Assembly (NCBI RefSeq): GCF_024347415.1
Contig: NZ_AP025477.1
Location: forward strand, 620,001-684,000
Direction of reading: 5' to 3'
Length of the DNA: 64,000 nt
Source: Vibrio crassostreae
Lineage (GTDB): Bacteria; Pseudomonadota; Gammaproteobacteria; Enterobacterales; Vibrionaceae
Every line of letters starts with the position of its first letter. The first letter of the stretch is position 1. Made by a program: the position numbers and the translations under genes. Below, one piece after another: positions 55,382-64,000 of the stretch. The notes beneath the pieces were generated by a model. The model ran no database searches. It was not told the DNA's origin and saw only the letters and a program-made list of their open reading frames with translations.

Positions 55382-56377
55382 ATGAACACCACAAACATAC
55401 TTCTACTTTGCGGCGGTGGATCTTCAGAGCATGAAGTGTCTTTAGTTTCAGCCAATTACCTTTTCGAACAACTCAATAGCGTTGCAGATTTCAACGTTGT
55501 GAGAGTTGAAATTAAAAACGAAGGCTGGTGTCTTGATTCAGGTGAATTGGTTTATCTTGATATTAACGATCAAACCCTGCGCGGTGACAATTTAACATCT
55601 AAAGTCGATTTCATTGTTCCTTGCATCCACGGTTTCCCAGGTGAAACAGGTGATATTCAATCACTGTTTGAAATGGCTAAAATCCCGTACCTAGGTTGTG
55701 GTTCAGAAGCGAGTAACAACAGCTTTAACAAAATCACTTCAAAGCTATGGTACGACGCACTTGGCATTCCAAACACGCCGTACCTGTTCTTATCAGACAA
55801 CAATGATCAAGCTCATTCACAAGCAACTCAAGCATATGAAAAGTGGGGTAAAGTGTTCGTGAAAGCGGCTCGTCAAGGTTCTTCTGTAGGTTGTTACCAA
55901 GTTAACCAAGTAGAAGATTTGAGCGAGGCTATCAACAAGGCGTTCACTTTCTCGGACCAAGTATTGGTTGAGAAATCAGTGGTGCCTAGAGAGCTAGAAG
56001 TTGCTGCTTATGAAATCGATGGCGAGCTACATATCAGCAAACCGGGCGAGGTGATTGCACCGAACGGCGCATTTTACTCTTACGAAGAGAAGTACAGTGC
56101 AGACAGTCACTCGATCACTGAAGTTGAAGCAAGCAACCTCACTGATGAGCAGCGTGAACTGATTGCAGAAAGCGCTCGAAAAGTGTTTACACAGATGAAG
56201 CTCCGCCATTTATCTCGTATCGACTTCTTCTTAACGCAAGACAACGAAATCTATCTGAACGAAGTCAACACCTTCCCAGGTATGACGCCAATCTCCATGT
56301 TCCCTAAAATGGTTGAGCATGACGGCCACAAATTCAGCCAGTTCTTAGAGAACTGCGTGAGAACAAGCCTTTCTTAG
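55382..56377 (+). CDS. ddlA: D-alanine--D-alanine ligase
   Basis: 331 residues with the ATP-grasp layout of Ddl: GGGSSEHEVSLVSA (10-23), VPCIHGFPGETGDIQSLFE, the VKAARQGSSVGCYQV nucleotide loop and NEVNTFPGMTPISMFP with Mg-ligands at the end. It makes the D-Ala-D-Ala precursor dipeptide. The DdlA or DdlB assignment rests on its isolation from the dcw division cluster. Monocistronic. Confidence 0.93.
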   Translation: MNTTNILLLCGGGSSEHEVSLVSANYLFEQLNSVADFNVVRVEIKNEGWCLDSGELVYLDINDQTLRGDNLTSKVDFIVPCIHGFPGETGDIQSLFEMAKIPYLGCGSEASNNSFNKITSKLWYDALGIPNTPYLFLSDNNDQAHSQATQAYEKWGKVFVKAARQGSSVGCYQVNQVEDLSEAINKAFTFSDQVLVEKSVVPRELEVAAYEIDGELHISKPGEVIAPNGAFYSYEEKYSADSHSITEVEASNLTDEQRELIAESARKVFTQMKLRHLSRIDFFLTQDNEIYLNEVNTFPGMTPISMFPKMVEHDGHKFSQFLENCVRTSLS

Positions 56378-56412
56378 GTTTCTAACTCGTTTTCGTTCAC
56401 TTAGAGCTGAAC

Positions 56413-56450
56413 CCAAAAGTGCCTTAAGCTTTCGCCAAGGCACTTTTTGT
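56413..56450 (+). terminator. rho-independent terminator of ddl
   Basis: AAAAGTGCCTT AAGCTTTCGCC AAGGCACTTTTT. Confidence 0.9.
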
Positions 56451-56534
56451 TTTTAAAGCTAGCCGTTTTTTACGAATCTATCATTTAGCCACAACTTATA
56501 TCCAAGTAACAATATCCAAGTAATTACGAACCGT

Positions 56535-57503
56535 TTATTGCCAAGGTATTAGCGCCTTAAACTTCATCTTCTCACTCTCAGCCGCTCCCGTGAAACCCAC
56601 ATATTGGGCTGGCATGGCAGGGCTAAGCCAGCGACCAAAGTCCTGAATCTCTCTAATCTTAAGACCTTGTTTCGACAACTCTTGTGCGGCACCAACACGA
56701 ATCGAATTTCCAGAGAAATGGTGGTTTTCTGGAAGTTGAAGTAAGTCGCTTGCTCTTCTCAATATTCGGTAAATGGACGAATCATCTAAAGGCTGTAAAC
56801 CAATATTCTCATGCTTGTCTATCGCACGAAACACAGGCAAATCGTCTTTTGGTCCAGTAAACGAAAGCCAACGTTGAAGTGCAACACTGGCTATTTGTGA
56901 TAACTGATAAGCTGAATCTTTGACTGTTACTTGGTAATGATCTTCAACGTACTCAACATCGGTCATCGACAACGCCTTAAGTTCTGAGCGCTTTAAAGCA
57001 CACTCGAACATAACGTTATAAATAGCGATGTCTCTGATCTCTTTCAAGTTTGCTTTATCATGGGAGAGTAACGTATTTAAATCAGTGAGATGCACAGATG
57101 TCATAGCATTGGTTTGTTTGGCGTCACCGGCCATTTGAGATTGTAAGTGGAGCAGGGTAAAGCGAACTTGCCTATGCTTGATCGGGTTAGCAAAGCTCAA
57201 CACAGTATGTAACATACTAAGCGTTGCAGTGTAACGTTTCAAGGATGCGTATTTTCTATCGTTGGACTCCGTCTCAAGAAATCGACGCACAGCGGTTATA
57301 GAAGCGGGAAGTGTGTTAATACGATGTTTGGTACAGAACGCATGATAGCGATTCCAATCACTGTAGATACCCAACAGTGAATTGTGAGAGTATTGAAATC
57401 CTGTCAATTCATCTATAATTTCAATTGTCGCGTGCCTGTTTAATTTTTCAACAAATGAATTAATTATCACAGAGTCGGTTAAAATAGGGACTTTTTTTCT
57501 CAA
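56535..57503 (-). CDS. Cre-like tyrosine recombinase with an atypical catalytic box
   Basis: 322 residues from a TTG at 57503 (GAGG 9 bases upstream; another TTG at 57518 is in frame). N-terminal core-binding domain about 15-125, catalytic domain about 135-305. Catalytic positions by comparison with Cre: Arg172 (ALKRSEL), Lys195 (VTVKDS), Asn266-x-x-Arg269 where His is expected (SGNSIRVGAAQ), Trp292 (FGRWLS), Tyr301 (PAQYVG). Not an integron integrase (no IntI-specific insert). It lies 1 kb from the dif-like site. Conserved role unknown. Confidence 0.82.
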   Translation of the reverse strand: MRKKVPILTDSVIINSFVEKLNRHATIEIIDELTGFQYSHNSLLGIYSDWNRYHAFCTKHRINTLPASITAVRRFLETESNDRKYASLKRYTATLSMLHTVLSFANPIKHRQVRFTLLHLQSQMAGDAKQTNAMTSVHLTDLNTLLSHDKANLKEIRDIAIYNVMFECALKRSELKALSMTDVEYVEDHYQVTVKDSAYQLSQIASVALQRWLSFTGPKDDLPVFRAIDKHENIGLQPLDDSSIYRILRRASDLLQLPENHHFSGNSIRVGAAQELSKQGLKIREIQDFGRWLSPAMPAQYVGFTGAAESEKMKFKALIPWQ

Positions 57504-57603
57504 ATTACCGTACCTCAACAGGTTTTTTTACCATATTATGCTTGATATCATTATAAGTATACTTATGATTAATGTAGTGAAAACAAAAAGATGATTAATA
57601 GAT

Positions 57604-57972
57604 ATGGCTAATTCAATTTACCGAAGCGTCCATCTTCAATCGATAGATGCTAATAACACAGTTTGGCGTGCTAAATTAAAAAACAACGTTATTCAGGGCA
57701 ACCTAGCTGCCGTAAAAAAGAGTATTGATTGGTGGATTGAAACCGCGTCTATTATTGATCCAAAAGAATTCACGTCATTAAATAAGTCGAGAGGAACTGG
57801 TGGCTCGACTGAAAACTTCAACGGCTACCAAATCAAGAATGACACCGGTGAGCCTAATGCGTGGTATTGCATGTTTAACGGTCGCTTAATCAAAGGCGGC
57901 AAGATTGCAATCCAGCGTCATATAGAAGCTTACTTACTCGCAAAACAAAAAGCAGAGCAACAAAAGAAGTAA
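57604..57972 (+). CDS. conserved small Vibrio protein, possibly DUF3319
   Basis: 122 residues, soluble, with IYRSVHLQS near the start, SIDWWIETA and a C-terminal GKIAIQRHIEAYLLAKQKAEQQKK. Its stop is 3 bases before the yciH start, so the two form an operon. I recall DUF3319 proteins at this position in vibrios but cannot verify it. Function unknown; the operon link with a SUI1 protein could imply a translation-related task (inference). Confidence 0.75.
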   Translation: MANSIYRSVHLQSIDANNTVWRAKLKNNVIQGNLAAVKKSIDWWIETASIIDPKEFTSLNKSRGTGGSTENFNGYQIKNDTGEPNAWYCMFNGRLIKGGKIAIQRHIEAYLLAKQKAEQQKK

Positions 57973-57975
57973 TTT

Positions 57976-58287
57976 ATGAGCCTAGTATATTCAACAGAAA
58001 CAGGTCGTATTAAACCTGAAGAAGAGAAAGTCCAACGTCCTAAAGGCGATGGTATCGTTCGAATCCAAAAAGAAACCAAAGGCCGTAAAGGCAAAGGCGT
58101 TTCTGTCGTAACTGGCTTAGACCTAGATGACGCACCATTAAAACTAATGGCAGCAGAACTCAAAAAAGTGTGCGGCTGCGGCGGCTCAGTAAAAGATGGT
58201 AACATCGAAATTCAAGGAGATGCTCGTGACAAGATCAAAGCGCACCTTGAAAAGAAAGGCTACAAAGTTAAATTTGCTGGCGGTTAA
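57976..58287 (+). CDS. yciH: SUI1/eIF1-like translation factor YciH
   Basis: 103 residues: a basic N-terminal arm then the SUI1 domain, with KGVSVVTGLDLDD, VCGCGGSVKDGNIEIQGD and KIKAHLEKKGYKVKFAGG. YciH affects initiation fidelity in bacteria. Short operon with the preceding gene; a stem-loop at about 58406-58440 lies downstream. Confidence 0.92.
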   Translation: MSLVYSTETGRIKPEEEKVQRPKGDGIVRIQKETKGRKGKGVSVVTGLDLDDAPLKLMAAELKKVCGCGGSVKDGNIEIQGDARDKIKAHLEKKGYKVKFAGG

Positions 58288-58403
58288 TCTCTAACTAATA
58301 CCAGGGTTAAAATCGAAGATTATTATCACTGGTTATTAGGTATTTTATGGTAAATAGCCAATATGGTTAAATACACAGTATAAATTAGAGACTATCGACT
58401 CAA

Positions 58404-58442
58404 TATAAAGGCAGGGCATCACATAAAGATATCTGCCTTATA
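58404..58442 (+). terminator. probable terminator after yciH
   Basis: TAAAGGCAG ... CTGCCTTATA stem with an 18-base loop, 120 bases after the yciH stop and 14 bases before the dif-like site. Confidence 0.5.
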
Positions 58443-58455
58443 ATCCCCAAAAACA

Positions 58456-58483
58456 ATTTAACATAACGTACATAATACGCACC
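58456..58483 (-). other. dif site (XerCD recombination site), probably dif of chromosome II
   Basis: On the reverse strand the 28 bases divide into GGTGCGTATTA, TGTACG, TTATGTTAAAT: an 11-bp XerC arm, 6-bp centre and 11-bp XerD arm. The XerD arm is identical to that of E. coli and V. cholerae dif sites and the XerC arm differs by one or two bases. XerCD resolves chromosome dimers here, under FtsK, and many vibriophages and islands integrate at this site. Base match is seen directly; function follows from the family. Confidence 0.85.
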
Positions 58484-58750
58484 GAAGTGCGTGAAATCTG
58501 ATAAGTTTCAGTACGTTAGTTCTTTCAGATTTTGCGTACACGCGTGTTATAGACGCTTGAAATTCAAAATGTTTCCACATAAATACGATCATTAATTAGT
58601 TTTCGTCCTTCCATTTTCCGTTATACCTAGTTTTCGTCACTGTTCTTTTTTCCGGTTTGACGACCCGTTTCATCGAATTCACCGATGGACATCGTGTTTT
58701 GTCATCGAAAAAATAATTCGACGGATGTTTGATAACTTGAAGGAGATCAC
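58484..58750. other. leader region of the dif-adjacent element
   Basis: 267 bases with no gene. It contains two direct copies of TAGTTTTCGTC (58597 and 58628) and several CATCGA/TCGATG-type inverted segments (58670-58715), candidate operators, just upstream of the DUF3653-like gene, whose ribosome site is GAAGGAGATCAC. Confidence 0.5.
58597..58638 (+). promoter_or_regulatory. direct repeat TAGTTTTCGTC x2, operator candidate
   Basis: Two identical 11-mers begin 31 bases apart, i.e. three helical turns, upstream of the phage-like regulator gene. Related sequences (TTTCATCGAA, TTTTGTCATCGAAAA) follow at 58670-58712. Confidence 0.5.
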
Positions 58751-59173
58751 ATGCTCACTCCCCGTTTTGCCGATCTATTGAATCGCTACTTCGACGATAT
58801 TCATGAAGCCGCCGCGTATTTTTACGTGCAACCGATCACGATCAAGCGTTGGCTGTCTGGCGCGGTACCGGTCAATCCACTGGCCGAAAAATTGATGAAC
58901 ATTCACGCCCGTGGCTACTTACCGTTGGATCATCGTTGGAACGGATTTCGTATCAACGTCGACCGCGCCATTCTGATTACCCCCGAAGATCGCGAATTCA
59001 ATCCCAAGGAATTGCTCAGTTTTGCGTACTGGCGTGACGAGCACCGGCAACTGGTTGAGCGCCACGGCAAAATTGAGTCCCCGAAATACTATCCAGCCAA
59101 GGAGCATCCCTTGCCATTTCGTGGTGGTCGACGTATGCCGCCCAAGCCCTGGATCCCGGCCAAATTCAAATAA
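58751..59173 (+). CDS. DUF3653-like phage protein (putative DNA-binding regulator)
   Basis: 140 residues. The N-terminus (RFADLLNRYFDDIHEAAAYFYVQPITIKRWLSGAVPV) is a helix-turn-helix-like block of the kind that begins DUF3653 proteins of Vibrio phages and islands; the C-terminus is basic and Pro-rich (GGRRMPPKPWIPAKFK). A very good ribosome site (AAGGAGATCAC) precedes the ATG. Codon use is GC-richer than the chromosome genes to the left, fitting acquired DNA. It probably regulates the element, which is inference. Confidence 0.75.
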   Translation: MLTPRFADLLNRYFDDIHEAAAYFYVQPITIKRWLSGAVPVNPLAEKLMNIHARGYLPLDHRWNGFRINVDRAILITPEDREFNPKELLSFAYWRDEHRQLVERHGKIESPKYYPAKEHPLPFRGGRRMPPKPWIPAKFK

Positions 59174-59235
59174 CGGCGCCATTCAGAGCCAAAACCCTCG
59201 AGATAAGCTTCTTGACCTTAGGAACGTATAACGTC

Positions 59236-59967
59236 ATGACAACGATAATAGCCAACCCGAACATCTTCATCGCGGGCGATGCCATGTGGACCAGCCAAGT
59301 CAGCGGTTTGGCAGTCGACTGTGAGACGCGCAAACACGTTGTGTGTCTCGAGCAAGTGATCTTTTTTTCGGGTGATGAGCACCCTATTATCCTCGCGCAA
59401 GCCGTGCTTCTGGCCCTCATTTCTGACGAGGAATACATTCAGTTAGCCCAAGCGCTCGACGAACGCGATGAGATTGGCTTGATTGCCTTAGCTGAAAACA
59501 CTGGTGCGTTGATAGACATACCCATCGGCAATAATGCGACCACCGGAGAGCTAATGTTTACGGGCTCTGGAGGCTTCCACGCGGCGACGTTCTTTCAAGA
59601 TCTCAATAATCTGCCTTGCCTATTGCAACGCATAGACACGGCCATGACGATGGCGTTCCACGTTGACGAGCAATCCGGTAACGGGATCCACAAGAAGGTG
59701 TGGCCTCAGCGCTACGACAACTTGTGTTATACTGACACCAGTTACCGAGAATACATCGGGGCTAAAATTCAAGAATATCACGAGTTCATCGCCGAATGGG
59801 CATCAATGGAGGGCGACAATATGGCAGCGCAACTTCCCCGCTCTACAAACCGCACAGCGCCGGCACCAAACGCGCCCAAAGCGACCCCAGAGCGCATGAA
59901 AGAAATACTCGAAGCGTTAAGAACAAATCAGAAGAAACAGACGAAAAAACAAGAAGAAAGCGCCTAA
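59236..59967 (+). CDS. HslV/proteasome-type Ntn-hydrolase-like protein encoded on the phage-like element
   Basis: 243 residues from the ATG at 59236. Mature numbering after Met: Thr1-Thr2-Ile; Asp14 in FIAGD (HslV Asp17); Lys32 in TRKHV (HslV Lys33); and TGSGGFHAA (about 111-119) matching the GSGG loop of HslV. Secondary-structure order also fits (beta strands, then LAQAVLLAL helix). An HslV-like C-terminus ends about residue 190; a Lys/Pro-rich tail (about 200-243) is additional. No HslU partner nearby. Function in a phage could be virion or host protein processing (inference). Confidence 0.65.
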   Translation: MTTIIANPNIFIAGDAMWTSQVSGLAVDCETRKHVVCLEQVIFFSGDEHPIILAQAVLLALISDEEYIQLAQALDERDEIGLIALAENTGALIDIPIGNNATTGELMFTGSGGFHAATFFQDLNNLPCLLQRIDTAMTMAFHVDEQSGNGIHKKVWPQRYDNLCYTDTSYREYIGAKIQEYHEFIAEWASMEGDNMAAQLPRSTNRTAPAPNAPKATPERMKEILEALRTNQKKQTKKQEESA

Positions 59968-60096
59968 ACAAGCGTTTTTTACTAATACGTTTAGTGATTG
60001 CTAACAATACATAATATGTAAACAATGCTATAACCTTAATTATTGCACCGTATAAACTCAGAGTGCCTGCAGTCTGAAGCAACTTAGTAGGTTTAA

Positions 60097-60741
60097 TCAG
60101 TAAACGATGTCCGTAAGAAATACTTTGTTATCATTAGAGAATTTTCCACACTCAAGGGAAATTAGACTGTCCAACTGTTCTATCGTTTGAGTATGAGCCC
60201 AAGAACTAAAACAATAAGCATCATTTATACTTATGAATAATGGGCCAATACAGCCTCCAGAGCCACAAGACCATTCATCCACAATAAGTAAATCACTTTG
60301 TTGTGAGCTACTTACTACTACCTCAATTGCTTTTATTGATAACGGGTTAGCCATTGAGCCACCTTCACTCACAGTTTGTTCAAAATACTTCCTATATTCA
60401 GTGATAATGTCTTCTTTACTAAAGTAAAGCCTATCGCTGTTTATCAAATATTCGAATCGAGTTTCGGCGTCTACAACTGAAAAGTACAATTGTTCTGCAT
60501 AGCTTTTTTGATTAGCAGTTTTCCTATTGGCGTTTTGTAAATCTGCTACTTTATCAGAAAGCACTGCAAGACGAGACTCAGCATCACCTAGGAAGCCTTT
60601 TGTTCTTTCTAGTTCATCATGCTGCTCAAATCTTGGGTGAACTGTATGAAAGTAAGCAAAAATGACAAATATCAAACTTATCAATGGTACGGAAGCGAAA
60701 AAGTAATCACATATCCCCTTTGATGAATCAACCCATTTCAA
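60097..60741 (-). CDS. integron-cassette gene: membrane-anchored coiled-coil protein of unknown function
   Basis: 214 residues, TTG start with GGAG 8 bases upstream. One N-terminal membrane helix (about 13-33, VPLISLIFVIFAYF), a coiled-coil segment (about 40-75), and a soluble C-terminal domain with a CGSGGC element. No family recognised. AT-rich compared with the phage-like genes. It is the last gene of the cassette array; its 5' side is bounded by attC1, but no attC follows its stop, so the distal attC may be lost. Confidence 0.7.
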   Translation of the reverse strand: MKWVDSSKGICDYFFASVPLISLIFVIFAYFHTVHPRFEQHDELERTKGFLGDAESRLAVLSDKVADLQNANRKTANQKSYAEQLYFSVVDAETRFEYLINSDRLYFSKEDIITEYRKYFEQTVSEGGSMANPLSIKAIEVVVSSSQQSDLLIVDEWSCGSGGCIGPLFISINDAYCFSSWAHTQTIEQLDSLISLECGKFSNDNKVFLTDIVY

Positions 60742-60760
60742 ATTTTATTCTCCATCTTAA

Positions 60761-60885
60761 AGCAAACGTCTTGTTAAGGTGTGAGGCACGCTATACCAAA
60801 GCCTCCATATACCACCCTGACCACTAAAAAAACGCATAGTAAAAATGCCACGTATTGCGAATCATTTTTAAACAGTTTGTTGAAC
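60761..60885 (-). other. attC recombination site 1 (integron cassette site)
   Basis: 125 bp. Reverse strand begins R'' = GTTCAAC, just after the upstream cassette's stop, and ends near CTTAACAAGACGTTTGC. Its AACAAACTGTTTAAAAATG...CGTGGCATTTTT portion follows the VCR layout. R' is imperfect (GTTTGCT rather than GTTRRRY), the weakest of the three. Confidence 0.75.
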
Positions 60886-60889
60886 GAAT

Positions 60890-61483
60890 TTACCGCCATG
60901 GTGCAATTGTTTTACTTTCTTCTACAACTCTCACATTGATTGGTTTTGAAGACTGATCACTAAGCACTTTGAAATAACCAATAGAAGACGCAGCTAAAAA
61001 TACAGCACAAATAACAGAGCACAGTAGACTCCTTGACAACCAAACTGTTCGTTTTAAATTAACAGAAGAGTTATGATCTATACACTCTGAGAATGTCCGG
61101 TTTAAATAGTCTTCATAATTTTCAGCTTTGCCAACATTTAAACTATGAGCTTTGTTATAAGAAGCTTGTTCTTCTTCATAATGCTCTATTTCCTTCTTAT
61201 AGGCGAGTAACTCTGTATATTTAGGTGCAATTCTATACTCGAATTTTGAGAGAATTGAATAGCATATGAAGGTACAGGACAAAATAAAAAATATTACCGA
61301 CATAAGAAGACTGATACTAAAAAGTAAATCTGGCTCAGACTCACTAGTATAAACCTTAACAATAGTTACAAGTACGCCACCAAGTATTGCAAGCAAACTA
61401 ACTGGAAATGTTAGCTTTTCATTAAAGTTGTATATTCGATTAAGCTCACTGAAATAAACTTCCTTTAAGTCACTGAATTGCAT
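60890..61483 (-). CDS. integron-cassette gene: multi-helix membrane protein, unknown
   Basis: 197 residues. Two adjacent N-terminal helices (about 25-45 and 52-75), a charged central cytoplasmic segment rich in Glu/Tyr, and a third helix near 147-167. No known domain recognised; the helix-pair plus soluble loop recalls small membrane effectors of bacterial defence systems, which is only a resemblance. Ribosome site GGAGTTTAA, directly behind attC2, so expression may depend on upstream cassette promoters. Confidence 0.7.
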   Translation of the reverse strand: MQFSDLKEVYFSELNRIYNFNEKLTFPVSLLAILGGVLVTIVKVYTSESEPDLLFSISLLMSVIFFILSCTFICYSILSKFEYRIAPKYTELLAYKKEIEHYEEEQASYNKAHSLNVGKAENYEDYLNRTFSECIDHNSSVNLKRTVWLSRSLLCSVICAVFLAASSIGYFKVLSDQSSKPINVRVVEESKTIAPWR

Positions 61484-61496
61484 TTAAACTCCATTC

Positions 61497-61622
61497 GTAT
61501 AACGACCAATTAAGGTGTAAGCCACGCTACCACGACACTTAAATTGAACGCCGTAAACACTAAACTTAATTCAAACCAAAAATGCCAAGCGTGGAGAATT
61601 ACTCTTAAATTGTTTGTTAAAT
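61497..61622 (-). other. attC recombination site 2
   Basis: 126 bp. Reverse strand R'' = ATTTAAC (overlapping the stop of the upstream cassette gene) and R' = GTTATAC; arms AACAAACAATTTAAG and CTTAATTGGTCGTT are complementary. Core motif CACGCTTGGCATTTTT matches attC1 and the Vibrio VCR family. Confidence 0.85.
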
Positions 61623-62555
61623 GAATTCTTGACCATTAGTGCCTGTGTTATCGATATAATTTTTATAATAGTTTGAATAGTTTTCTAATTGGCTAAACTT
61701 AACCAACTTTTCAATCGTATCATCAGTGTGCTTGAGCTTCATATTAGCCTTTAAAAATACTAACATTAGCCCAGAGAAAATTACGGATATCAATGAAAGC
61801 ATTGCTCCTTTTAAAGAAAAGAGAATATCCCAAAACGCTCCTATCGATAAACTTATTTCCGCATTTACTTCCAATGGAAGAAAGCTCAGTGGGTATACAA
61901 CACCAGCGAAAAACAATAGCAGTACAGAAATTATTGAAAAGTTAATCAGATTAGACGAATCTTGCCCTGAACTAAGTTTATCGACATGAGACTTATTGAC
62001 TTTAACCTGATGGAGAGTTCTAACTAATAAGTTATCGATTTCTTCTCGCTCAGGCGTTGTATCTATACTGACAAATGACAGTGATTTCATATGCAGCGAC
62101 TTTGGCATTGCATATGCAATGCCAAATGTATTGTTTTCGAACTTGTCTCGCTCTGCCTGTTCTTTCGCTCTTATAGAGTGAAATTCCGCTATTTTTTCTT
62201 CTAATAATGGAACAATATCTCCCTTAGCATCAAAAGATGAAAAATTATACTTCTCTAAGTATTCAGCAGAGGTTAACAATTCGCCTTTCTCGTGAAACGC
62301 TTCATCTATATCGCAGAGCTCTATATCTCTAATTCGCTCATTGTACCACTTAAAATATCGCGACTTAGCCTCATCACATAAAGCTTCAGACTTTAATATT
62401 GAATTTGAAGCGTCTGCTTTGTCCTGCGAAAATTCTGCTTGGTTTGAAACTATTTTTGTAATCAAAAACGCAGCAAAAATTCCCACTATAGCGCCCGATG
62501 TTTGGCTGATAGTGCTAAAAAATACGTTCCAATCCAAAAGTGTACTCCTATTCAT
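61617..62555 (-). CDS. integron-cassette gene: three-helix membrane protein with long soluble segment, unknown
   Basis: 312 residues if the ATG at 62555 is used; this codon is immediately after attC3 (only 5 bases from the recombination point). An internal TTG at 62537 is preceded by AGGAG with suitable spacing and may be the true start. Helix about 13-35, a charged soluble region about 40-205, then two helices (about 208-228 and 248-272) and a C-terminal tail. No recognised family; defence-related role is speculation. Confidence 0.7.
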   Translation of the reverse strand: MNRSTLLDWNVFFSTISQTSGAIVGIFAAFLITKIVSNQAEFSQDKADASNSILKSEALCDEAKSRYFKWYNERIRDIELCDIDEAFHEKGELLTSAEYLEKYNFSSFDAKGDIVPLLEEKIAEFHSIRAKEQAERDKFENNTFGIAYAMPKSLHMKSLSFVSIDTTPEREEIDNLLVRTLHQVKVNKSHVDKLSSGQDSSNLINFSIISVLLLFFAGVVYPLSFLPLEVNAEISLSIGAFWDILFSLKGAMLSLISVIFSGLMLVFLKANMKLKHTDDTIEKLVKFSQLENYSNYYKNYIDNTGTNGQEFI

Positions 62556-62679
62556 TTAACGCCTTATTAACTTGTGACAAAACAATGCAACCAAACCTAA
62601 TGTGACCAGCGTAATCACAAAAGTTGACCATTACAAATTTGCCAAATGTTTTGGAATCCAGTTGAACAATTTGTTAAGT
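62554..62679 (-). other. attC recombination site 3
   Basis: 126 bp. R'' = ACTTAAC, overlapping the stop of the NYN gene, and R' = GTTAAAT (perfect RYYYAAC and GTTRRRY matches). The internal sequence differs from attC1/2 but keeps the AACAAATTG...CAAGTTAATAAGGCGTTA arms. Confidence 0.85.
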
Positions 62680-63417
62680 CTTTTTAGGGCGATACGCAAT
62701 AATATTAACCGTCCCTTTCCCTTTATATTTAGTCATTTCAAACTCATGTTTTAGAAGAGCTATTACTTCTGGTAGTTTTGATACACCGTAAGTTCGAGGA
62801 TCAAAATCTGGCTTTGCTCGTTTCACAAATCCAACGACAGGTGATACATTTGCCCAACCTGAATCATCCTGAAATCTCTCCCACGCTTTACTAAGCACGG
62901 GTATAAGTTGTTTTACGTTAACTTGTTTATCACCTTTTGCCTTTGGCGCCTTTGCAGTCTCTTCGGTATCTTCAGATCCCAAATTCTCAGTGTAAATAAA
63001 GTCGTCACAAGCATTTCTAAATGCTACGGGTGTCGTATTTTTTCCGACTCCAAAAACAAATATTTCGGACTCACGTAGACGCGACGCTAGTTTCGTAAAA
63101 TCACTGTCGCTAGACACAATAGCAAATGCATCAAACTTTCCTGAATATAGCAAATCCATTGCATCTATTATTAGATATGCATCTGTAGCATTTTTTCCTT
63201 GGGTATAAGCAAACTGCTGAACAGGCTGGATAGCAAGCTCGTTTAAAACTCCCTTCCAGTTCTTCAAATATTCACTAGACCAGTCACCATACGCTCTTTT
63301 GATAACCATGTGTCCATGAGCTGATATTTCGTCAAGAATCAGGTTTAGCTTTGAGTATTGAGTGTTGTCAGCATCTATTAGAACAGCAATTTTTTTATGA
63401 TCATCTAAATCCTTCAT
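62674..63417 (-). CDS. integron-cassette gene: NYN/PIN-like ribonuclease with LOTUS/OST-HTH domain
   Basis: 247 residues. N-terminal NYN domain: IAVLIDADNTQ (Asp15/17), KNATDAYLIIDAMDLLYSG, AIVSSDSDFTKLASRLRE with the acidic metal-binding residues of LabA-like/NYN RNases. C-terminal OST-HTH (LOTUS) segment (about 165-245; RTYGVSKLPEVIALLKHEFE) binds RNA. The family acts on RNA; homologues occur in phage-defence and stress contexts. Ribosome site GGTGGT, first gene of the array, so nearest to its promoter. Confidence 0.82.
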   Translation of the reverse strand: MKDLDDHKKIAVLIDADNTQYSKLNLILDEISAHGHMVIKRAYGDWSSEYLKNWKGVLNELAIQPVQQFAYTQGKNATDAYLIIDAMDLLYSGKFDAFAIVSSDSDFTKLASRLRESEIFVFGVGKNTTPVAFRNACDDFIYTENLGSEDTEETAKAPKAKGDKQVNVKQLIPVLSKAWERFQDDSGWANVSPVVGFVKRAKPDFDPRTYGVSKLPEVIALLKHEFEMTKYKGKGTVNIIAYRPKKT

Positions 63418-63653
63418 ATACCACCATATTTGAATAATAACTTAACAGCTATTAGACCGAATTATTCTGCATTTAAAAACAGAGTTTTTCTGTCTAGTCT
63501 GATTTATGGGAAGGGATTATAATCATAAATCCTAGTTATAACAGTGATTTAAATCATTAACTGTGAAACTGGATGACTAAAGTACAGATTGTTGTCTTAA
63601 GGAAGACAGAGAGGGCCACTGTCCTAAAGAAATAGCCCTGTGATTGATCTGAT
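63418..63653. other. gap between the cassette array and phage-like genes
   Basis: 236 bases. On the reverse strand it ends with the ribosome site of the NYN gene, so an array promoter must be here. A G^TTATTAT-like junction at about 63436 could mark the array's upstream limit but no full attI or attC is recognisable. The segment around 63610-63645 forms an AGGGCC...GGCTAT-type imperfect hairpin. KOPS-like GGGAAGGG at about 63508. Confidence 0.45.
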
Positions 63654-63776
63654 TTATCGACGTTTTTTGTAGCGTTTTCGTGTGGTGTTCGCCCTTACCA
63701 CGCGCCCGTTCTTGAGCGTGTAACCTTTCTTAAGTTGGCCGTTTGGTCGGCGGCCTTTGCACTTGTGTCCTTTCAT
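63654..63776 (-). CDS. 40-residue highly basic phage-like protein
   Basis: ATG at 63776 with GGAG upstream (GGAGATACCGA). It encodes MKGHKCKGRRPNGQLKKGY... and ends RKRYKKRR: about 40 percent Lys/Arg. Small basic proteins like this are virion components (DNA or membrane contact) in compact tailless phages such as corticoviruses and autolykiviruses, but I have no homologue in hand. It overlaps the upstream gene by 47 bases in another frame. Confidence 0.65.
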   Translation of the reverse strand: MKGHKCKGRRPNGQLKKGYTLKNGRVVRANTTRKRYKKRR

Positions 63777-63924
63777 TCGGTATCTCCAGTTTTCGTATCC
63801 GTTGCTCTTGGTCTTGTTGCACTCGCTTTATCCAATTAATGTCCGTTTTCAAAGCCGCAATCGTGCCCAGGCTTGAGACTCCGCCTGTCATGAACGCAAT
63901 AATCAGTGTGTCGATAAAGCTCAT
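63730..63924 (-). CDS. small membrane protein of phage type (about 64 aa)
   Basis: The best start is ATG at 63924 (GAAGGGG 5 bases upstream; 63927 and 63939 are also in frame). One N-terminal hydrophobic helix (SFIDTLIIAFMTGGVSSLGTIAA) then a charged amphipathic tail (DINWIKRVQQDQEQRIRKLE) and a basic C-terminus. This is the shape of small phage membrane/holin-like proteins; function not established. Its start overlaps the upstream gene's stop. Confidence 0.6.
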   Translation of the reverse strand: MSFIDTLIIAFMTGGVSSLGTIAALKTDINWIKRVQQDQEQRIRKLEIPNERTQVQRPPTKRPT

Positions 63925-64000
63925 CATTTCCCCTTCCATCGCGAGACGTAAAACTCGAGGAGATAGCGCACCATGGCGCGCATCCCGAGCGTATCAACTA
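63924..64000 (-). CDS. C-terminal end of a phage-like gene (truncated by the window)
   Basis: The reverse-strand frame entering from the right edge reads ...VDTLGMRAMVRYLLEFYVSRWKGK and stops with TGA that overlaps the start of the next gene (ATGATGA). Only 25 residues are visible, so no family can be given. Confidence 0.55.
   Translation of the reverse strand, partial: VDTLGMRAMVRYLLEFYVSRWKGK

Follow-up and report, generated by a model that had tools for sequence, protein, structure and literature searches.

A corticovirus-like prophage at dif in Vibrio crassostreae that carries an attI-like site and integron cassettes

Chromosomal integrons are regarded as sedentary. Cassettes also insert outside of integrons at sites called attG, and attC sites have been reported in phage genomes. 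A separate group of elements, the integrative mobile elements exploiting Xer (IMEX), includes CTXphi, VGJphi, and TLCphi. Here we describe a locus from Vibrio crassostreae that has features of each of these systems. We analyzed a 64,000-nucleotide stretch, referred to here as the window, that corresponds to positions 620001-684000 of contig NZ_AP025477.1 (C2) in a 5.80-Mb genome of four contigs (G000; other genomes are given by similar numbers). In positions 1-54000 of the window the analysis consisted of scans for dif, attC, and attI, and C2:684001-716000 beyond the right edge was read as well. The right edge of the window cuts through a 13.87-kb prophage located at dif, 8.35 kb of which lies beyond it. 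This prophage contains an array of integron cassettes. We consider it probable that it is a Xer-integrated, corticovirus-like phage with an attI-like site and no intI gene, and that this site is loaded in trans by the integron integrase, IntI.

The array lies in an AT-rich block of four minus-strand genes (60097-63417), with 33-37% GC per 500 bp compared to 45-55% in the late operon of the phage. In the order in which they are read, its features are:

63446..63500, minus strand: attI-like site, 55 bp, with the crossover between 63446 (G) and 63445 (TTAAGT)
62674..63417, minus strand: cassette gene 1, NYN and OST-HTH protein (PF01936 E 2.7e-37, PF12872 E 6.3e-9)
62557..62678, minus strand: attC c, R1 65.0 bits, hidden Markov model (HMM) 36.3 bits, R'' box ACTTAAC
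61617..62555, minus strand: cassette gene 2, 312-aa membrane protein
61500..61621, minus strand: attC b, R1 107.9 bits, HMM 86.4 bits, R'' box ATTTAAC
60890..61483, minus strand: cassette gene 3, membrane protein with weak matches (PADLOC PycTM E 2.2e-5; 2TM effector of cyclic-oligonucleotide-based antiphage signaling systems E 4.6e-4)
60764..60884, minus strand: attC a, R1 80.1 bits, HMM 76.8 bits
60097..60741, minus strand: cargo gene after the last attC, possibly a cassette

The attC sites were scored with two models. With an HMM made from the window's own three sites as bait, arrays beside IntI were found in G080, G139, G105, and G129; the HMM in the list was made from 56 such chromosomal sites, and the covariance model R1 from 32 attC sites of other Vibrio integrons. 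The best of 300 Markov shuffles of the element reached 10.6 bits with the HMM, compared to 36-86 bits for the three sites, and chance attC sites were rejected. R1 found no further site in the rest of the window at E 5 and had 21 matches in the whole G000 genome, of which 19 had E <= 1e-6. For cassette gene 2, the 226 other Vibrio genomes contain no relative at E <= 1e-20 (1/227, its own).

The array starts at a 55-bp sequence that we interpret as a putative attI site. Of the aligned bases at 63446-63500, 47/55 (85%) are identical to the attI beside IntI in G105, G139, G129, and G076. An HMM made from those four attI sites only gave the G000 phage site 40.9 bits (E 2.7e-10 in 1.42 Mb from 80 loci); the best of 300 shuffles gave 11.6 bits, and chance was rejected here too. 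A second model, R2, made from 11 chromosomal sites with none from phage, gave 59.6 bits (E 2.1e-16). When R2 was run over 36 sources, it also detected the site in a phage remnant on contig C1 of G010 (66.7 bits) and in three GenBank records of related phages, the PE records described below (53.4 bits), and more weakly in G016, G218, and G129 (23-24 bits). At E 0.1 there was no attI by R2 in the isolated corticovirus vB_VruC_PG21 or in the remaining sources of the 36.

Alignments place the boundary between phage and cassette DNA at or near this site. DNA homology to PE003 and G129 ends close to the crossover (L009:7446), at L009:7439 and 7443, and homology to the G010 phage ends earlier, at L009:7612. 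When the query also took in 300 bp of phage DNA to the left of the crossover, homology to G033 began at the crossover G and ran for 838 columns into attC c. The G033 homologue of cassette 1 is an 89% identical gene flanked by two attC sites (104.6 and 81.0 bits). By these alignments, phage homology ends and chromosomal-cassette homology begins at the base expected for the crossover.

As a junction test, we compared the 5' core of each cassette with the R'' box of its own attC, with which it should pair. The cores of cassette 1 (GTTAAGT) and cassette 2 (GTTAAAT) are exact complements of the R'' boxes of attC c and attC b. The remnant in G010 C1 has an HNH gene as its first cassette at the aligned crossover, and its core and R'' box also match exactly (GTTATGC / GCATAAC). 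Among the 15 attI-like hits listed in the search with the four-attI HMM, three had no attC downstream and 6/12 of the others had an exact core/R'' match. We then surveyed 30 loci of the best-scoring R2 attI-like sites, 3 kb each; nine of these come from genomes that contributed sites to R2, and the phage remnant of G010 C1 is included as L237. IntI was found within 3 kb in 10 loci and attC downstream in 16, of which 10 had an exact core/R'' match and three had one mismatch. The crossover was misplaced in L241, L251, and L252, which were counted as having no attC or as non-matches. Random pairing of cores and R'' boxes gave a mean of 1.07 and a maximum of 7 matches, and 0/20,000 permutations reached 10. 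These data support the assignment of the site in the G000 phage as an attI, as far as can be judged from sequence.

Searching the whole G000 genome for IntI gave no TIGR02249 match over the cut-off. The cassettes were therefore probably captured by the IntI of an earlier host. Among the other capsid-carrying genomes, 13 of 38 were checked and 6/13 have IntI over the cut-off, including G129, which has the same kind of phage. In G010 an integron integrase is present in two fragments (C1:1154531-1154904), in line with loss of IntI in the group. The G000 genome has four more listed attI-like sites (C2:406403, C1:1648697, C1:1993668, and C1:1676885), each with a same-strand attC downstream.

The prophage is bounded by two dif-like sites, the resident dif and a second site 13,871 bp away. 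The features outside of the array are:

58456..58483, minus strand: attL, resident dif, with a good XerD arm on the chromosome side and the XerC arm on the phage side
58751..59173, plus strand: DUF3653 protein (PF12375 E 1.2e-14; phrog_8213 E 5.5e-56), like gp-c of PM2 according to a note in PQ189304
59236..59967 (59212 with a TTG start), plus strand: proteasome/HslV-like peptidase gene, cargo (phrog_1040 'peptidase HslV family' E 7.3e-5)
63730..63939, minus strand: phage late gene, gp-k-like, 69 aa, 91% identical in PQ189304, where it is noted as GPK_BPPM2
63924..64000, minus strand: 3' end of the 136-aa phage late gene, late operon
C2:692327-692354: attR, second dif-like site, with a degenerate XerD arm TGGGGTTAAAG

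The reverse complement of 58456-58483 reads GGTGCGTATTA TGTACG TTATGTTAAAT, and the runner-up dif candidate in the window had 8/28 mismatches. The two dif sites have identical central hexamers and XerC arms that differ at 2/11 bases. Joining the element's own XerD arm and center to the right-hand XerC arm predicts a dif before insertion, ACTGCGTATTATGTACGTTATGTTAAAT, that is exactly the 28-mer at dif2 of G023, another species, where the element proteins have no match. The same left flank lies at dif in G129, G010 C1, G017, G016, G026, and G023. A tyrosine-recombinase-like gene (56535-57518, minus strand) adjoins dif2 on the left, and that flank is also found at dif in G105. To the right of attR (L009:16518-20000 and L010:1-1435) there is an apparent second, decayed element of the same kind, comprising DUF3653, cargo genes, gp-k, and a truncated 136-aa gene, and then chromosome.

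The preliminary description of this stretch, made from the sequence alone, had proposed a phage-like element at dif starting at 58484, which is the first base after the dif defined here, and had suggested extending the sequence past 64 kb to look for a distal dif copy and for capsid, ATPase, and replication genes. The extension revealed the distal dif-like site, the capsid gene, and the ATPase gene; a replication initiator was not recognized. Both the DUF3653-like gene right after dif and the proteasome-type gene on the forward strand are where they had been placed, and the compact overlapping reverse-strand genes at the right edge turned out to be the end of the phage late operon. The four reverse-strand AT-rich genes with three attC sites were also confirmed, as was their position inside a phage, with phage genes on both sides and no IntI over the cut-off in the host. 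Beyond what had been described, the array starts at an attI-like site and related phages have different cargo in this position.

From left to right, the plus-strand DUF3653 and proteasome-like genes are followed by the four AT-rich minus-strand genes and by a minus-strand late operon that codes for the gp-k-like protein, the 136-aa protein, an endolysin (Peptidase M15), proteins of 146, 299, 310, 75, and 89 aa, the capsid protein, the packaging ATPase, and proteins of 162, 155, 79, and 218 aa; a plus-strand helix-turn-helix (HTH) gene then follows. One of the late genes is spike-like. The part of the late operon beyond the window, the HTH gene, and attR lie at C2:684001-692354. The proteasome-like gene (59236-59967) has no Pfam match and lies inside a stretch that has no DNA homology to the related phages compared. 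None of the genome's 16 PF00589 matches is inside the element, and other recombinase families were screened via the PHROGs and Pfam scans. Comparing the 21 element proteins with PHROGs, Pfam, or both, we recognized no replication initiator among them, and a divergent one is possible. We take P12 of PM2 to be a rolling-circle replication initiator, with no assumption as to whether it defines the order; the annotation of PG21, which is filed as Corticoviridae, names no replication initiator either. Rfam gave no match at gathering thresholds in 56000-64000.

The capsid and packaging genes identify the phage. The capsid protein matches a PHROG major head protein (phrog_8536, E 2.6e-72). It had no match in the PDB with phmmer. 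The AlphaFold2 model (predicted local distance difference test, pLDDT, 70.6) had PM2 P2 (2vvf) as its first PDB match in Foldseek (E 4.5e-15, template modeling score 0.71), which suggests a double-jelly-roll capsid of the P2 type. The packaging ATPase matches phrog_2666, a head-and-packaging family named terminase large subunit (E 1.1e-36), and is in the same gene order as in PQ189304. Four GenBank records from V. cyclitrophicus have a capsid protein 98.5% identical to this one (Vibrio phages 10N.239.311.C11_PE003/PE004, H11_PE003, and 1F273_PE003; PQ189304, 305, 312, and 385). The three that were compared are all filed under Vinavirales and share the late gene order with the G000 element. Thus, the element is a corticovirus-like (Vinavirales) tailless prophage of a Vibrio lineage that is found at dif.

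Relatives of the capsid protein occur in 46/50,697 phage records, 39/148 Vibrio genomes sampled, one locus in IMG/VR, and three in genome_contigs. The phages that bear it are of two kinds. The first has an integrase and a replication-A-like gene (for example, PQ189313). The second has no annotated integrase and carries the 218-aa protein, which is present in 15/227 Vibrio genomes and 6/50,697 phage records, PG21 among them. The model of this protein (pLDDT 69) had weak winged-helix matches, none at E <= 0.001. We examined the surroundings of all 18 matches to it in Vibrio genomes, calling a site dif-like at 20/28 bases or at 15/17 on one side. Capsid and 218-aa genes occur together in 14 of the 18 stretches, and all 14 have a dif-like site, that of G087b being diverged; in 6/14 the two ends could be matched through a shared center. 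Three stretches have no capsid gene (G205, G147, and G019), and the last is a separate copy in G168. The 218-aa protein is a marker of the dif-type phage lineage. The G000 genome also has two further capsid genes of the same family (C1:307064 and C1:632215), with tyrosine-recombinase genes about 6.5 kb from each.

Evidence from relatives bears on how the phage integrates. G168 has an integrated copy and, apart from it, a contig of 11,916 bp that aligns as the circular form of this copy: the two alignments abut at their ends, with a 34-bp overlap at the att core that both copies share. In PG21, an intact XerC arm lies between the HTH and DUF3653-like genes, where the ends of a prophage would join. 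In G010 the same kind of phage is at dif of a 3.70-Mb contig and not at dif2 of its other chromosome, and several species have only gp-k/136-aa remnants near dif, some with cargo and DUF3653. Two types of att are seen, one with a good XerD arm (G168, G148, and G190) and one with a good XerC arm (G000, G129, and G010). In G129, a 25-bp sequence lies beside both att sites (L045:668-2148 and L045:15338 onward) and is also beside attR in G010; a gene after attL in G129 appears by eye to be transposase-like, possibly an insertion sequence inserting beside dif.

These sites suggest that a temperate, corticovirus-like phage with no recognized recombinase of its own uses host XerC and XerD at dif. Its attP would lie between the HTH gene and DUF3653. 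In the lineage of the G000 type, attP would have a good XerC arm, the same center as the host dif, and a degenerate XerD arm; integration would thus leave one good and one poor dif. XerC would make the first exchange in this att type, which presumably resembles that of VGJphi. The attI-like site, carried without intI, lies in the interval from the late operon's 3' end to DUF3653. In a host with IntI, that enzyme would recombine cassettes into it and the array would then travel with the phage; in G000 the array has one NYN/OST-HTH cassette and two that encode membrane proteins. The cargo is probably related to defense or toxin-antitoxin systems and would help the lysogen.

In related phages this position is occupied by different cargo. 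In G010 this is a Toll/interleukin-1 receptor protein like ThsB (PADLOC E 8e-128), a ParA-like ATPase, and ParDE; in G129 it is ParE with Phd/YefM and a beta-flower protein; and in PE003 it is a DUF2971 protein (PDC-S31) with notes of PfiAT/ParD.

Sites like this attI are not limited to this phage. R2 found them at E 1e-4 in at least 54/227 Vibrio genomes, often with several matches each and with opposite-strand hits of one palindrome included; these counts are lower bounds because stricter filters were used and 23 candidates were scored per genome. A 58-nt attI consensus was found in 8/50,697 phage records, all from V. cyclitrophicus (reversed control, 0), and in 4/72,556 plasmid records, and exact attI patterns gave 0 matches in two scans of IMG/VR. 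The eight phages comprise four of the G000 kind, three filamentous phages (PQ189294, PQ189339, and PQ189387), and one P2-like tailed phage (PQ189370). In the P2-like phage, the attI is followed by a gene and an attC (73.9 bits) whose core and R'' box agree at 6/7 bases; the two filamentous phages scanned, PQ189294 and PQ189339, have no attC after the attI. Copies with no IntI in 3 kb also recur at certain chromosomal loci, some of them followed by attC. Their neighbors, named by eye from open reading frames, include an ABC-transporter permease (G136 C1:1509079, G200 C91:151606, and G169 C1:1668882), a MATE exporter (G152 C102:46348, G198 C2:1297559, and G133 C64:21938), and a protease (G145 C1:1678294). 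There is perhaps an even chance that these form a distributed integron, in which IntI-less attI copies on Vibrio chromosomes, plasmids, and tailless, filamentous, and P2-like phages are served by one IntI in trans, and phages collect defense cassettes and move them via dif between species.

Several observations weigh against loading of the phage site in trans. G000 has no IntI, so capture must have occurred elsewhere or before its loss, and the mobility of the G000 element, both excision and packaging, is presumed from its sequence. The attI-like stretch is short, at only about 55 bp, and nearly palindromic, and there is no sigma-70-like (Pc promoter) site at it in L009:7380-7760. The attI and attC models are free of window and phage sequence, but their sites were first found using such bait. 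By R2, the attI is weak in G016, G218, and G129 (23-24 bits) and absent from the G010 phage element (L044), which nevertheless has two attC sites (36 and 29 bits). The core/R'' match fails in PE003/PE004/1F273 and G129, and in cassette 3 of G000 it holds at only 5/7 bases. Lastly, the right end of the array has no defined clean cassette end; the best candidate attC for the gene at 60097-60741 had 4.8 bits (E 6.9, at 60013-60056).

Alternatively, the near-palindromic 55-bp sequence may be, instead of a copied attI, a dispersed Vibrio repeat that is an incidental target of IntI, similar to attG and perhaps used as a folded strand, with the sites in phages, chromosomes, and integrons all being copies of the repeat. 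Many of the at least 54/227 genomes do have several copies, counting opposite-strand hits twice, and 20/30 loci surveyed have no IntI within 3 kb, eight of which also have no downstream attC. Set against this, the repeat holds the attI position beside IntI in 10/30 loci, the cassette core/R'' signature occurs at it both in and outside of integrons, and 5/5 listed copies in the G000 genome have a same-strand attC downstream within 2.7 kb. We regard this explanation as possible, although doubtful. It seems less likely still that a single recombination event with a chromosomal array, homologous or illegitimate, brought the attI-like site and cassettes together into the phage, where they are now a fixed passenger. 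Such an event would fit with the unclean right end of the array and with a host that has no IntI and keeps further cassette-bearing attI-like sites. It does not account for an attI-like site common to relatives that have different first genes, NYN in G000, HNH in G010 C1, and DUF2971 in PE003, nor for phage homology that stops at about the same place in each relative. That an ordinary chromosomal superintegron lies beside an unrelated prophage remnant is very improbable and already contradicted. The cassettes and attC sites are typical of Vibrio integrons; however, the array is between phage genes within two dif-like sites, and related phages carry cargo in this position. A host superintegron, or a cluster of attC sites lacking integron integrases (CALIN), was rejected in view of the location of the array within the phage and of a genome with no IntI match over the cut-off.

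If loading of the phage attI-like site in trans by IntI does take place, a phage with an attI would be a vehicle that is loaded with cassettes in one vibrio and unloaded in another, and this would explain the movement of cassettes and anti-phage genes between integrons and phages. Since this virus carries what appears to be an integron docking site with three cassettes, PM2-like viruses with such a site and no integron enzyme of their own may shuttle cassettes between bacteria.

As a comparison with known systems, the locus resembles an integron or CALIN in having an attI-like site followed by cassettes with attC, and differs from them in that neither the element nor the G000 genome has IntI and the array is inside a phage. 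Like attG, it involves cassettes outside of an integron; by contrast, the target in G000 is homologous to attI over 55 bp. Among the corticoviruses, the PE records share the capsid and late gene order, and the capsid is predicted to have the fold of PM2 P2; the cargo of the PE records is unlike that of the G000 element. In PG21 there is likewise a relative of the 218-aa protein, along with a DUF3653-like gene and a gene annotated as HTH; PG21 differs in that it has no attI match and that no cargo of comparable size separates gp-k from DUF3653. The element resembles IMEX in that it is at dif, is flanked by dif-like sites with one good and one degenerate copy, and has no recognized recombinase. 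Unlike the filamentous IMEX phages, it is predicted to be a double-jelly-roll, double-stranded DNA phage, and this places such phages at dif, a location known chiefly for filamentous phages.

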